This document shows positions 5,520 to 56,925 of a DNA stretch of 64,000 nucleotides, in pieces. This DNA comes from Clostridia bacterium (lineage in GTDB: Bacteria > Bacillota > Peptococcia > DRI-13 > UBA5745): NCBI GenBank assembly GCA_018436095.1, contig JAHDMJ010000008.1, positions 294,518 to 358,517 of the forward strand, given 5' to 3'. Every line of letters begins with the position of its first letter. Within the stretch, counting starts at the first letter, position 1. A model generated the notes under the pieces. It searched no databases, was not told the DNA's origin, and worked only from the letters and a program-made list of their open reading frames with translations. Both the position numbers and the translations under genes were made by a program.

Positions 5520-6695
5520 TTGAAGACGAACAAAAAAATCAAGGGTCTGGTTTCTATTGCCCTGGCCTTGCTTATCTTTGCTTGCCCTCTGGCAGAGTCT
5601 AAGGCTTTGGCTACGGCTCAATTGCCGGTGGAAGTGGAGGCGGAGTCGGCTATCGTTATGGAAGTCAGTACGGGAATGGTGCTCTATGAAAAGGAAATCC
5701 AGGAGCGTCATTATCCTGCCAGTACAACGAAGCTGATGACCCTGCTTTTGGCGGTGGAAGCGGTGGAAAGGGGAGAAGCAAGCTGGGAGGACCGGGTAAC
5801 GGCCAGCGCTTTGGCTGAATCTTACGGCGGTTCCCAGATTTTTTTGGCGGAAGGAGAAATTCTTACTTTAAAAGAGCTGGCTCTGGGAGTAGCTTTAGCT
5901 TCCGGCAATGACGCGGCGGTGGCCATAGCCGAATATTTGGCCGGCAGTCACGGCGCTTTTGTGGAGAAAATGAATGAAAGAGCGAAAGAGCTGGGCATGG
6001 AAGGCAGTCATTTTGTCAATGCCAATGGTCTGCACGACGAAAACCATTACACTACTGCCTGGGATCTCTGTCTGCTGGCCCGGGAGGCAGTAAAGCATCC
6101 CGATCTTTTGGAAATGACGGCTCTTAAACACTATAGGATTAGAGAGCATACCAGCAGGCCTTTCCAATACGACAACAAAAATAAATTGCTTTGGGAATTT
6201 GAAGGAGCCAAAGGGCTGAAAACCGGCTGGACTTTGGAAGCCGGCTACTGTCTGGTGGGTTATGCCCAGCGTCAGGGCCTGAGCCTGGTTTCCGTGGTGC
6301 TGCAAAGCCCTAAGGCCAAAGGCCATACCAATGATACGAAAACCTTGCTAAACTGGGCCTTTAATACCTATGTCAATTATAAGCCGGCTCCCCAGGAGAT
6401 TCCTCAAATCATTATTAATGTCAATAAGGGAAAGGTGTCCCAAATTCAAGGGCTTTTGCCGGATCAGTGGGGCATACCGGCGGTGAAGGGCCAGGAAACC
6501 ATTCTTCATTATACCTGGGAGGGACCGGAACATATTTCAGCCCCTTATGACAATAGCCAGCCCTTAGGCTACCTGCTGGTTGCCAATGACCAGGAGCAAT
6601 TATTAGTTAAGCTGCCGGTACGCGGCGATCAATCGGTGGAAAGGGCTAACATGGGTTTTATGATGAAAAATATTTTTACAAATTTACTTTCCTGA
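5520..6695 (+). CDS. dacF: D-alanyl-D-alanine carboxypeptidase DacF (penicillin-binding protein)
   Basis: This is a peptidase S11 enzyme that trims the terminal D-Ala of peptidoglycan stem peptides. In spore formers, DacF acts in the forespore on the germ-cell wall and cortex. From the TTG at 5520 the protein has 391 residues: a signal peptide (about 1-32), SxxK as STTK (Ser68, Lys71), SGN (128-130) and KTG (234-236), then a C-terminal beta domain. TTG is chosen because AGGAGGTGG lies six bases upstream; the earlier in-frame TTG at 5484 has no such site. It directly precedes spoIIAA, as in Bacillus, but a sigma-H-type promoter lies between them. Confidence 0.93.
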   Translation: MKTNKKIKGLVSIALALLIFACPLAESKALATAQLPVEVEAESAIVMEVSTGMVLYEKEIQERHYPASTTKLMTLLLAVEAVERGEASWEDRVTASALAESYGGSQIFLAEGEILTLKELALGVALASGNDAAVAIAEYLAGSHGAFVEKMNERAKELGMEGSHFVNANGLHDENHYTTAWDLCLLAREAVKHPDLLEMTALKHYRIREHTSRPFQYDNKNKLLWEFEGAKGLKTGWTLEAGYCLVGYAQRQGLSLVSVVLQSPKAKGHTNDTKTLLNWAFNTYVNYKPAPQEIPQIIINVNKGKVSQIQGLLPDQWGIPAVKGQETILHYTWEGPEHISAPYDNSQPLGYLLVANDQEQLLVKLPVRGDQSVERANMGFMMKNIFTNLLS

Positions 6696-24521: not shown

Positions 24522-24595
24522 GGTAACGGGAACCTTTTGTTCATCTGTGGAGTCTAAGCAATAAAGAAACCTTAAAGATGAAGGGGGAGCTGCCA

Positions 24596-25387
24596 ATGAA
24601 GAGAGCTGTCTTGATTTTTCTGGCGACGTTAACTATACTGACTCTTGTTGCTTGCTCGCAGTCTATTTCCTGCCCGCCCGGGCCTGAAACCCAGGGGAAG
24701 GATGATCCTAATGTTTCTGAGGCAATTTTGACCGCAAAGGTTATAGATATCAATGGTTCATCAATCTTGCTGGCCAATATGGCGGAAGATGCGGGGCCGG
24801 CAGATATCTACCGGCTTGGCGGTGATGGAATAGAGGTTATTGCAGAGGATGGAACCCAATTAGGTATCGAAGCATTAGAGCAAGGAATGCTGGTGGATGT
24901 GGCTTTCGACGGCAGGGTGCAGGAAAGCTTTCCTATGGGCCTTGGCGGCATAAAGGGCGTCCATATTAAAGGCCGGGGCGACGATATCACCGGCCTTTAC
25001 AGGAGGGTGATCGACGACTTATACAAAGTTGATCCCGGCTTGAATAGCAATATCAGCATTTTGGCTTTTGACTTCACCAAAGTCTCCAATTTGACGGAAG
25101 CAGAAAAAGCAGCGCTGCTTCATTTGCTTAGGGAAACCTATAGCGAGGAGATCATGGCGGCAACCTATTCAGAGCTAAGTGAGCAAGGGTATATCGACAA
25201 GGATAAGCTGTATTTTGAAAAAGGCCTATTGTTCAACATTGAAGACACAGCTATATCCGGTGATGAACTCACCTTTAATGCAGGGAAATGGCGCAGCGGC
25301 CTCGGGGCCTATTTCTTCCACGAATGCACGGCCATAAAATCTGAGGGAGCCTGGACCTACACCATTGGCGCTGAAATGATATCCTAA
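24596..25387 (+). CDS. Putative lipoprotein, unknown function
   Basis: The 263-aa protein has a lipoprotein signal peptide (lipobox LVAC, about residues 14-17). An N-terminal part of about 100 residues contains beta-rich segments such as AILTAKVIDINGSSILLANM and DVAFDGRVQES, resembling DUF3221-type small domains. A C-terminal part follows (about 110-263, ending in an FFHECTAIK segment). ATG 24596 is chosen because AAGGGGGAG precedes it; the ATG at 24578 would place that site inside the gene. It may be co-expressed with the PadR/DUF2812 pair 75 bases upstream. It overlaps the convergent gene by 4 bases. Confidence 0.7.
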   Translation: MKRAVLIFLATLTILTLVACSQSISCPPGPETQGKDDPNVSEAILTAKVIDINGSSILLANMAEDAGPADIYRLGGDGIEVIAEDGTQLGIEALEQGMLVDVAFDGRVQESFPMGLGGIKGVHIKGRGDDITGLYRRVIDDLYKVDPGLNSNISILAFDFTKVSNLTEAEKAALLHLLRETYSEEIMAATYSELSEQGYIDKDKLYFEKGLLFNIEDTAISGDELTFNAGKWRSGLGAYFFHECTAIKSEGAWTYTIGAEMIS

Positions 25388-26118
25388 AGATTTAGCAGCA
25401 AGGTCATGGCATGAAATATTAAACCGGCACCGATAATACCCATCAACGTAGGGGCCAAAATATTAGCACATTTCGCAATTTGAGTTTTAATCACCAGATA
25501 AAGGCGATCAAATTTATCCTGAGCCTTGATATAGACAAAATATAAAATTATTAAAGGCAGGGTATAGATCGTATTGTAAAGGACAAGTATAAATGATAAT
25601 TGTAAAAATGAGAGCTGATAATTTAGGAGGATAGCCAAAAAAGCAAAGTAAGGCAGGGCGGTCGTCAGTTCGGAAAGTGTTGCGCCTACTCCTAAAGTTA
25701 TTAAGGCAAGGGGAGATACGGATTTTATTTTGCTTACAGCTTCTTCTTCATCATTTTTATTGATTTTTTCACCGGATTCTATAGATTGAATCCGGTTTTT
25801 TAATTGGCTAACTTTATTGTTATGAATTAAAAAGAAGACGCTGCTGCAAAAAGTGATGCCAAGTATTAATTCGGCAATAAATAGAAGTTGTCCATAGCTT
25901 TCTAGAATTCTGTTAAAGAAGTTGGCAATAAAAGCGGCCAGTCCGAAATATACCAAAAAGCCGCCGATTAAATTGACGACGCCTGTTGGTAGAATAAAAT
26001 ACCATATATGTTTTGGCTTTTTAACCATGCCCTGCAAAACAAATTGTTGAGTTATAGCAAAGGGATTAAGGCTGTCCGCAGCGCTTGCTAAAATTGTTGG
26101 CAATAATAGTCCCCACAT
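25384..26118 (-). CDS. LysE/GAP-superfamily membrane protein under a guanidine-I riboswitch
   Basis: The 244-aa protein has six or seven transmembrane helices. It opens with ILASAADSLNPFAITQQFVL, which resembles the Sap/GAP and DsbD/LysE-type families (a small-residue N terminus with an NPF motif), has a charged cytoplasmic loop (about residues 108-132) and a second half starting SPLALITLGVGATLSELTTALP. A strong AAGGAGGAAAA site precedes the ATG. A guanidine-I aptamer with its terminator lies in the leader, so the natural inducer should be guanidine. Guanidine or guanidinium export is the simplest hypothesis, supported by context only. Confidence 0.75.
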   Translation of the reverse strand: MWGLLLPTILASAADSLNPFAITQQFVLQGMVKKPKHIWYFILPTGVVNLIGGFLVYFGLAAFIANFFNRILESYGQLLFIAELILGITFCSSVFFLIHNNKVSQLKNRIQSIESGEKINKNDEEEAVSKIKSVSPLALITLGVGATLSELTTALPYFAFLAILLNYQLSFLQLSFILVLYNTIYTLPLIILYFVYIKAQDKFDRLYLVIKTQIAKCANILAPTLMGIIGAGLIFHAMTLLLNL

Positions 26119-26141
26119 TTTATTTTCCTCCTTTTTTGAGC

Positions 26142-26184
26142 AAAAAAAGAAGCCAGGGAGATATCGTTAAATAACTCCTAGGCT
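26142..26184 (-). terminator. Riboswitch expression-platform terminator
   Basis: In the RNA direction, AGCCUAGGAG (complement of 26175-26184) can pair with CUCCCUGGCU (complement of 26151-26160), followed by UCUUUUUUU. The 5' arm is also the 3' end of the aptamer, so ligand binding and termination are mutually exclusive, the classical on-switch design. Confidence 0.82.
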
Positions 26185-26270
26185 TTTATCCTACCGTGTA
26201 CATAGTCTTATAAGACTATGGGTTTTCTCTCGGACCAGACCAACAGTTCTTGTTGCGGAACCCTAGAAAA
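26175..26270 (-). ncRNA. Guanidine-I (ykkC) riboswitch aptamer
   Basis: Reading the minus strand, the conserved blocks occur in order: CUAGGGUUCCGC, then GGUCUGGUCCGAGAG, AAAAC, a variable hairpin (AUAGUCUUAUAAGACUAU), then ACACGG, GGAUAAAAGCC and GGAG. These are the hallmarks of the ykkC RNA class, and the set is closest to the guanidine-binding subtype 1. The subtype-2 variants that bind ppGpp, PRPP or nucleotides differ at a few core positions, so ligand assignment should be confirmed. It lies between clcA-like and the LysE/GAP-like gene, with its own promoter. Confidence 0.93.
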
Positions 26271-26295
26271 CTAAAAGGTTATTAAATTATTAGGT

Positions 26296-26324
26296 AGTAT
26301 ATCAACGTATTCAGATAATGTCAA
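26296..26324 (-). promoter_or_regulatory. Sigma-A promoter of the riboswitch transcript
   Basis: On the minus strand TTGACA (complement of 26319-26324), a 17-base spacer and TATACT (complement of 26296-26301). The aptamer begins about 25 bases downstream. Confidence 0.86.
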
Positions 26325-54691: not shown

Positions 54692-55324
54692 TTAATTAAA
54701 CAAGCCGAATAATTTTACAAAGCTATTGACCAGGCCGTTGGAAAGGGGACCGATAATCCTTGAGGGGACGTTGCCGAATATCAGCAGCAATAAGATAACA
54801 AAGCCGTATTGCTCCACGATCTGAGCTCCATGATAAAAGCGGTCAGGCAAAAGGCCGAAAAGGATTTTCGAGCCGTCTAAAGGCGGCACAGGGATTAAAT
54901 TAAAGAAAGCCAGGCTGGCGTTAATGGAGCAGAAATAGACTAAAAATCGGTAAAGCCAGGGCATGGTGTAGAGGAAATAGTCAGGTATAAAGGTGAACAC
55001 GCCTACGCCGATAAAACACAGCAGCACATTGGACATTGGCCCTGCCAAGGCCGTAAGCAGCATACCGGTTTTTTCGTCCACATTGCGAAATTGGTAGGGA
55101 TTTACCGGTACGGGCTTAGCCCAGCCAAAGCGAAAGAACATCAAAGCCAAAAGACCTATGGGATCAATGTGGCGCAGAGGATTAAGAGACAGACGGCCAG
55201 CATTCTTGGCCGTGCTGTCCCCTAATTGATAAGCGGAAAAGGCATGGGAAAACTCGTGAAACGATAAGGAAATAATGATTGCCGGTAAAATGAACAGCAA
55301 ATCACTAAAAGAAAAATTAATCAA
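54692..55324 (-). CDS. Site-2-protease-like M50 metalloprotease (YwhC/SpoIVFB-type)
   Basis: The 210-aa membrane protein has zinc motif HEFSH (residues 23-27) and the second motif NLIPVPPLDGSKI, with about six helices. These proteases cut substrates within the membrane; the physiological target is unknown. Start TTG 55324 has an AGGTG site and lies at the end of lysA (8-base overlap). It has neither a PDZ nor a CBS domain. Confidence 0.9.
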   Translation of the reverse strand: MINFSFSDLLFILPAIIISLSFHEFSHAFSAYQLGDSTAKNAGRLSLNPLRHIDPIGLLALMFFRFGWAKPVPVNPYQFRNVDEKTGMLLTALAGPMSNVLLCFIGVGVFTFIPDYFLYTMPWLYRFLVYFCSINASLAFFNLIPVPPLDGSKILFGLLPDRFYHGAQIVEQYGFVILLLLIFGNVPSRIIGPLSNGLVNSFVKLFGLFN

Positions 55325-56693
55325 CAGGCACCTGTCCCTTCGGTAATGTGAGTTTTTGCCATTGGTGGCCGTGATCCCAAAGCAAATGCTCAGGTATAAG
55401 GTCGTTGCGGACAATGTCCTCAAAAGTCTCTCTTTTGACGATAATATGGGCCTTGCCGCCGGAAACCATGACTACGGCAGGCTTGGCAATACGGTTGTAA
55501 TTGCTGGCCATGGAATAATTGTAGGCGCCGGTGGTGGAGATGGCCAGGATATCGCCGGTTTCCACCCAGGGCATGGAAGCATCCCAAAGCAGCATATCGC
55601 CGGACTCACAGCACTTGCCGGCTACGGAGGCCACAATCTGATTGGCGGCCGTCATCTTGTTGGCCAGGCACATTTCGTACTTGGCCTGATATAAAGCCGG
55701 CCGGGGATTATCTCCCATGCCGCCGTCTATAGCCACGTAAGTACGAACCCGGGGAATGGTCTTGATGGAGCCTACGGTATATAGAGTAGTGCCCGCATTG
55801 CCTACAATGGCCCGGCCCGGCTCGATGGAAATTCGCCGGGGCATGGGGTGGTTGTGGCGGGACAGCTCTTCCTGTAAGGCTTCGTAAATGGCCTTGGCAA
55901 AATCAGCGGGAGTTACCGGCGTATCGCCTTCCCGGTAATAAACGCCGAAGCCGCCGCCCAGATTAATTTCAGGCAGATGAAAGCCTAAATTGTCGCTGGC
56001 ATAGGCCATAAAGGAAGCCATGATTCTGGCGGTCTGGGCAAAGGATTCCACTTCAAAAACCTGGGAGCCGATGTGGCACTGGATACCTACCAGCTCCATA
56101 TGCTCCTTGGCATGCATCAGGTGCAGAGCTTCCATAGCCTGGCCTGTAGAAATGCTGAGGCCAAACTTGGAATCGATCTTGCCGGTTTGAATATACTCAT
56201 GGGTATGGGCTTCAATGCCGGGCTGAACCCGTAAAAGTACCATAGGCCTTAGGCCCATGCTGCCGGCAATCTCGTCAATCAACTGAATCTCCGTAAAATT
56301 ATCCACGATAATCCGGCCTACCCGGTTTTCCAAAGCATAGCGGATTTCATCGGGAGTCTTGTTGTTGCCGTTGAAATCGATGCGGGAAGGATCGGCTCCT
56401 GCAGCTAAAGCCGTGTAAAGCTCGCCGGAGGATACCACGTCGATGCCTAAATCCTCCTGAGCCGCCAGCCTTAACATAGCCAGGCAGCAAAAAGCCTTGC
56501 TGGCGTATGCCACCTCGCCGCCGGGAATCCCTTCAATAAAAGCCTTGTGAAAGGCCCGGCAGTTTTGCCGCAGCAAATCTTCATCCATGACGTACAGAGG
56601 GCTGCCAAACTCCTTGACCAGATCCACCGTATCACAACCGCCGATGACCAGATGGCCATCTTCATTTACTGTCATTGTACCGTGTCTTTTCAT
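55317..56693 (-). CDS. lysA: Diaminopimelate decarboxylase
   Basis: LysA makes L-lysine from meso-diaminopimelate with PLP. The 458-aa protein has VAYASKAFC (Lys66 as PLP anchor), HIGSQVFEV, LGGGFGVYYREGD and KCCESGDMLLWD (Cys and Glu of the active site, from the partner subunit). ATG 56693 follows AGGAGAGG; an open frame up to 56750 is upstream leader. A lysine riboswitch sits in the leader, so this gene is repressed by lysine. Confidence 0.97.
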   Translation of the reverse strand: MKRHGTMTVNEDGHLVIGGCDTVDLVKEFGSPLYVMDEDLLRQNCRAFHKAFIEGIPGGEVAYASKAFCCLAMLRLAAQEDLGIDVVSSGELYTALAAGADPSRIDFNGNNKTPDEIRYALENRVGRIIVDNFTEIQLIDEIAGSMGLRPMVLLRVQPGIEAHTHEYIQTGKIDSKFGLSISTGQAMEALHLMHAKEHMELVGIQCHIGSQVFEVESFAQTARIMASFMAYASDNLGFHLPEINLGGGFGVYYREGDTPVTPADFAKAIYEALQEELSRHNHPMPRRISIEPGRAIVGNAGTTLYTVGSIKTIPRVRTYVAIDGGMGDNPRPALYQAKYEMCLANKMTAANQIVASVAGKCCESGDMLLWDASMPWVETGDILAISTTGAYNYSMASNYNRIAKPAVVMVSGGKAHIIVKRETFEDIVRNDLIPEHLLWDHGHQWQKLTLPKGQVPVD

Positions 56694-56718
56694 TTGATTC
56701 CTCTCCTTTTTTAATTCT

Positions 56719-56925
56719 GATGAGATAGTGCTCCACCTTTCAATCCACACCCTCCTTGCGGAGAGTGACGTTGATAATGGTGACAGTCCTGCACTTATTC
56801 AATGCAGTCCCAGCCCGGGGCTTTGCCAAGCCCTGACTTCGGCGGGTGACCCTTTCCTCCCATTCAACGCCTGCCGGCTCCCGGGAGTAATCTTGCCATC
56901 CGCAACCTCTACCTCATCTCGGGAG
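56719..56925 (-). ncRNA. Lysine riboswitch (L-box) of lysA
   Basis: In the RNA direction, the conserved blocks occur in order: GAGGUAGAGGUUGCGG, GGCAAGAUUACUC, GGGUCACCCGCCGAAG, GGGCUGGGACUGCAUU, ACUGUCACC and, after a variable hairpin, GGUGGAGCACUAUCUC, which closes P1. No strong intrinsic terminator lies before lysA. A CUCUCC segment just upstream of P1 is complementary to the lysA GGAGAG ribosome site, so control at translation start is possible. Confidence 0.92.

Follow-up and report, generated by a model that had tools for sequence, protein, structure and literature searches.

A guanidine-I riboswitch precedes an SfLAP/GAP-family membrane protein gene, a candidate guanidinium exporter that may stand in for Gdx in Clostridia

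Introduction

Guanidine export is established for few proteins. It is proven for Gdx, which exchanges guanidinium for two protons by way of paired glutamates (PMC12186494, PMC9574504), and MATE and PnuC types have been proposed as further guanidine exporters (PMC7736828). Under guanidine-I switches, guanidine turns genes on (PMC12186494, PMC9574504). The GAP family, part of the LysE superfamily, comprises proteins of 180–290 aa with six TM segments in a 3+3 arrangement, and its characterised member has been linked to mycobacterial peptidoglycolipid transport (PMC4608589).

Here, we describe a guanidine-I locus in a 64,000-nt stretch of Clostridia bacterium GCA_018436095.1 (contig JAHDMJ010000008.1, positions 294,518–358,517), referred to below in its entirety as the window. 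As at loci of Gdx (a SugE-type SMR protein), the guanidine-I switch has an overlapping terminator, a small membrane protein gene lies directly downstream, and this gene occupies the same place in related Clostridia. The two proteins, however, are unrelated in sequence: the window protein has 244 aa, belongs to PF11139 and probably spans the membrane about 6 times, whereas Gdx has about 105 aa, belongs to PF00893 and has 4 TM segments. The locus also resembles those of MATE (MepA) and PnuC under guanidine-IV, non-SMR transporters for which the exporter proposal likewise came from riboswitch association (PMC7736828); it differs from them in protein family and in that SfLAP proteins appear to be tied to two guanidine riboswitch types. 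A riboswitch–exporter unit is thus already known, and it is the SfLAP family within one that appears to be new. Term searches of main-text literature returned no link between SfLAP, PF11139 or the LysE family and guanidine riboswitches, although an unremarked supplementary listing is possible.

Results

A monocistronic unit with an overlapping terminator

The unit lies on the minus strand and begins with a near-consensus, housekeeping-type promoter (26296–26324; 11 of 12 consensus bases), in which a -35 element TTGACA (26324–26319) and a -10 element TATACT (26301–26296) are separated by a 17-nt spacer. The aptamer of a guanidine-I (ykkC subtype 1) riboswitch follows at 26173–26277, matching Rfam RF00442 in cmscan over its full length (1–107 of 107) with 92.6 bits against a gathering threshold of 63 (E = 1.9e-15); the 3.7-Mb genome contains this one guanidine-I copy, located before the SfLAP gene. 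Sequence and folds identify an intrinsic terminator, the expression platform, at 26142–26185, with the stem AAGCCTAGGAG...CTCCCTGGCTT followed by CTTTTTTT (stem 26185–26150 plus T7). Its 5' strand (26185–26175) is part of the aptamer 3' end, and the leader fold has a z of -2.85. Because of this overlap, ligand binding should block termination, and we infer that the riboswitch is an ON switch.

A ribosome-binding site (AGGAGG, 26127–26132) and the gene itself (25384–26118), a single ORF with a match to PF11139, complete the unit. The next gene (24578–25387) lies on the plus strand, convergent with the SfLAP gene and with an overlap of 4 bases; the unit is therefore monocistronic. We excluded the adjacent ClC gene as a component, the related locus L029 from the same genus having a different upstream gene. 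A preliminary description of the window, made by reading its letters, had called a guanidine-I riboswitch here and placed promoter, aptamer and terminator on the minus strand leading into one gene only; the covariance search bears out the former, and the latter holds at the coordinates given above.

Base 46 separates the ykkC subtypes, with A denoting guanidine and a pyrimidine found in subtype 2 (ppGpp/PRPP) (PMC6031431). In the window aptamer, whose core reads ACACGGTAGGATAAAAGCC, the equivalent of A46, mapped by eye, is A (CCGAGAG), as it is in all six close relatives described below. This base and the gene context rule out a ppGpp/PRPP subtype for the window aptamer. Membership of another ykkC subtype, which the preliminary description had named as grounds for rejecting its reading, was thus looked for and not found.

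An SfLAP-family protein with two conserved acids

The window protein passes the cut-off of Pfam SfLAP (PF11139) narrowly, with 36.5 bits against 35, and five of its close relatives score 38–51 bits. We take PF11139 to correspond to the GAP family, TC 2.A.116, with which the protein agrees in size (180–290 aa) and in its predicted number of segments. Pfam searches with the window protein returned no LysE match at E up to 1, no DsbD match and no PF00893 (SMR) match; the initial assignment to the LysE/GAP superfamily therefore stands by way of PF11139, and the LysE and DsbD models themselves are unmatched. Hydropathy across the alignment fits about six segments with a charged loop at about 100–133, suggesting a six-segment topology. 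Two acids, D15 (in DSLNP) and E150 (in ELTTALPYF), are kept in all aligned sequences of both branches of the family described below, and the alignment contains no invariant cysteine. An AlphaFold2 model of the window protein from a 6-sequence alignment reached a pLDDT of 43 and was discarded as unusable. The characterised SfLAP/GAP member has been linked to mycobacterial peptidoglycolipid transport, unlike the window gene, which lies under a guanidine riboswitch and in Clostridia; for this reason, the family name is no predictor of guanidine.

The switch and gene are conserved as a unit in close relatives

The closest family members (branch A) number seven including the window, the six relatives being 58–88% identical to the window protein; five came from a genome scan and one more (L040) from a family search. 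A guanidine-I aptamer lies upstream of the gene in 7/7, that is, in all family members of at least 58% identity, and scores 85.8–95.7 bits against RF00442 in the six relatives. The preliminary description had proposed looking for other genomes with the same aptamer and a GAP-like gene, and these relatives provide them. In all six relatives (L029–L033 and L040), promoter, overlapping terminator and start codon are ordered as in the window and the leaders retain a TTGACA-type -35, with the gene of L033 starting about 440 bases past the aptamer. The flanking genes vary by locus, even upstream between the window and L029, which share one genus, so what is conserved is the unit of switch and gene. 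No carboxylase, hydrolase or guanidinase gene adjoins the SfLAP gene at the branch-A loci.

Distant relatives carry a different structured RNA

Profile searches recovered a second group, branch B, 28–39% (about 35%) identical to branch A, in whose leaders an Rfam search found no guanidine-I aptamer in any case. These leaders contain another RNA, in which a short hairpin with the loop RCCG precedes a long hairpin with the loop UAGGYC...G that closes in a T run; the two hairpins are joined by a pseudoknot, and the second is a terminator. The element is present at 12 of 12 interpretable branch-B loci, counting copies beside the start codon, and a pattern scan of all collected loci placed it at branch-B loci only. 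Pairing across ten elements holds in 96% of cells, compared with 39–48% when the pairing is slid, and 12 of 16 pairs have changed on both sides. The pseudoknot is kept in 10/10, including an A-U to G-C change, with the pair at columns 8/51 being G-C in five, A-U in three and G-U in two.

A covariance model of the element (R1) found L049 (E = 3.5e-8) and L054 (E = 3.6e-14), both outside its training set; L054 has a broken gene only and is not counted among the 12 interpretable loci. Searched against 753 kb of unrelated viral DNA, R1 gave no match at E below 0.1, and near the SMR genes of relatives it reached E = 0.16–0.24 at best, which we read as chance. These SMR genes lack Rfam guanidine riboswitches and are therefore unusable as a positive control for R1. 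Viral-contig loci from the branch-B pattern search were rejected, as none scored with the model and a stricter pattern found none. A blastn search of the element against plasmids gave chance matches only, and viral contigs and phages contained no SfLAP relatives.

Guanidine-IV RNAs combine two hairpins with a pseudoknot and a terminator, and in L. lactis the loop bases G66, U67 and G72 are essential (PMC7736828); these correspond to G71, U72 and G77 in C. botulinum. Kissing pairs A29-U72 and C30-G71 have been described, G77 is essential, and the double mutant A29G/U72C rescues (PMC11611296). In the branch-B element, both essential G positions are invariant with the published spacing, and the essential-U position is U or C, with C always accompanied by a compensating G in loop 1. 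Pairs matching A29-U72 and C30-G71 occur with G77 at the same spacing, and where A-U has changed to G-C in nature, the exchange is the one made in the double mutant that rescues. The guanidine-IV variant Gd4v, which has another ligand, never has G at D1 and carries an extra hairpin (PMC9788692); the branch-B base that we equate with D1 from the published text is G, and the extra hairpin D2 was not seen. No Rfam 15 model matched the branch-B leaders, and Rfam 15 may hold no guanidine-IV family. The RNA thus looks guanidine-IV-like, an assignment made by published positions and architecture and not by a match to a model or a validated sequence.

A PNPOx-like gene directly precedes the branch-B gene in L038, L041, L049 and L053 (in L049 as read from the leader), and those of L038, L041 and L053 are 45–63% identical to the PNPOx-like genes inside the guanidine-I/SMR loci L003 and L006. 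In L047, the two RNA copies are separated by a remnant, EKEAIELVNN, that corresponds to the last part of the PNPOx-like gene; this gene was apparently lost, leaving two RNA elements in tandem. Just before the SfLAP start, L038, L041, L046, L047 and L049 repeat the guanidine-IV-like loops in a shorter form (AGCCCGCCGGGG...UAGGCC.GCG). Loop 2 of this second copy also supplies the 5' strand to a hairpin resembling a terminator, and the expression platform seems to differ from that of the distal copy. Of the branch-B gene, two loci (L035/L054, genomes G306/G523) contain the C-terminal part only; it is flanked by fragments of a pyruvate phosphate dikinase gene, a strong branch-B RNA element lies close by, and the contig is probably rearranged or misassembled.

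The SfLAP gene occupies the position of SMR genes

Only 19 of 376 Clostridia genomes surveyed for guanidine-I had a match over the cut-off. We examined 17 loci (L055–L071) that are true guanidine-I by sequence, leaving out two second copies, and the downstream gene was SMR in 15, SfLAP in one (L056, the SfLAP locus of the L031 genome) and another gene in one (L061, G804). At L061, the first gene after the switch resembles one that lies downstream of the SMR gene at sister loci. The SMR genes under guanidine-I at L060 and L066 have an in-frame stop, reflecting either a pseudogene or a sequencing error. Matches that exceed the threshold and precede genes of other kinds, purE among them (L007, L008, L072, L073), seem to belong to subtype 2. 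Among nearer relatives, the other true guanidine-I loci (L003, L005 and L006) all include SMR genes.

PF00893 was not found in any of the seven branch-A genomes (window, G004, G428–G431, G844), some of the genomes in this comparison being incomplete. Among guanidine-I genomes, 18 of the 19 that lack SfLAP have an SMR gene at the switch, compared with 0 of the 7 that carry SfLAP (Fisher p = 1.2e-5, a value that ignores shared ancestry; in the nineteenth genome, SMR was sought at the switch locus only). SMR is also missing from many relatives that have no SfLAP gene, of which only 17 of 60 have SMR above the cut-off, and many relatives without guanidine-I likewise have no SMR. That the SfLAP gene seems to take the slot of Gdx, in genomes without Gdx, supports a role in export.

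Discussion

We interpret the window locus as a self-contained guanidine detoxification unit in which the SfLAP protein exports guanidinium, replacing Gdx, and assign this reading a probability of roughly 0.75. Accumulating guanidinium would bind the aptamer and block the terminator, allowing transcription to reach the SfLAP gene; its product would then export guanidinium, and possibly simple substituted guanidines too, standing in for the SMR exporter Gdx. Export would probably proceed by proton antiport using D15 and E150, perhaps in the role of the paired glutamates of Gdx. Branch B seems to fulfil the same function under riboswitches of the guanidine-IV type. Guanidinium export best explains why one transporter family would have guanidine switches of two unrelated classes, and the same switch in close relatives, a guanidine-IV-like one in distant relatives and the missing usual pump point to a probably separately evolved exporter. 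A clade of the SfLAP/GAP family probably represents a new guanidinium exporter class with no relationship to SMR; it would have come under two structurally unrelated riboswitch classes, guanidine-I in branch A and guanidine-IV in branch B, and would replace Gdx in several Clostridia.

The preliminary description had already suggested an exporter, and this idea gains support from the aptamers in 7/7 close members, the Gdx slot and the guanidine-IV-like RNA of branch B. It had also held that finding the family away from guanidine riboswitches with a different known function would speak against it. Branch B does lack guanidine-I, but its context is another guanidine switch-like RNA, and no different function emerged. 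The analogy to arginine export, drawn in the same description, adds little, since guanidine-I RNAs reject arginine (PMC7266159). LysE arginine/lysine exporters (TC 2.A.75) share the superfamily and the six-TM architecture, but the window protein has no Pfam LysE match and the likeness in substrate is by analogy only.

The transported compound could instead be a related one (methylguanidine, guanylurea or another substituted guanidine), with guanidine serving only as inducer or co-substrate. That guanidine-IV RNAs bind amino- and methylguanidine too (PMC7736828) and that a guanidine-IV variant has another ligand (PMC9788692) lend this some substance, but guanidine-I rejects arginine and urea (PMC7266159) and the gene sits where Gdx, an exporter selective for guanidinium (PMC12186494), is usually found, so we regard it as unlikely. 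We give less credence still to a guanidine-linked role in membrane repair, lipid translocation or redox chemistry that protects the cell without moving guanidine: the link of the characterised GAP member to peptidoglycolipid transport and the electron-carrying function of DsbD (PMC4608589) offer precedents, set against the mutual exclusion with Gdx, the lack of an invariant cysteine in the alignment and the two types of guanidine switch on the SfLAP family.

Import of guanidine as a nitrogen source is very improbable. Some guanidine riboswitches do control importers, but the known ones are mostly ABC systems (PMC12186494), export is the direction given for most LysE-superfamily families whose polarity is stated (PMC4608589), and the branch-A genes stand alone, with no adjoining carboxylase, hydrolase or guanidinase and in genomes that lack the usual exporter. 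That a riboswitch merely happens to precede an unrelated membrane gene might be entertained for the single guanidine-I copy in the window genome, but the unit is common to 7/7 close members in differing neighbourhoods while so few of the surveyed Clostridia genomes have any match, and conservation effectively refutes this explanation.

If guanidinium export by the SfLAP protein is correct, a LysE-superfamily guanidine exporter would represent a convergent solution to one toxic cation and would provide a substrate for a family that is poorly characterised and known chiefly for its part in lipid transport in mycobacteria. It would also account for how certain bacteria that have guanidine riboswitches manage without Gdx, and the guanidine-IV link, if true, would extend the gene classes under that riboswitch by one.

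Additional observations

A lysine riboswitch (RF00168, 100.8 bits) lies elsewhere in the window, at 56718–56919 on the minus strand, directly before an ORF resembling a PLP-dependent decarboxylase (55317–56750); the ORF is probably lysA, an ordinary pairing. Beyond chromosomes, SfLAP relatives on plasmids were limited to a gene in an integron region of Klebsiella (31%) and a match on a Kovacikia plasmid (26%). The former (L036, positions 5959–6648 of Klebsiella quasipneumoniae plasmid LC621169.1), at whose locus a guanidine riboswitch was not found, scores 69.3 bits against PF11139, is 31% identical to the window protein and lies, annotated as hypothetical, in a class 1 integron, where resistance-gene cassettes flank it.
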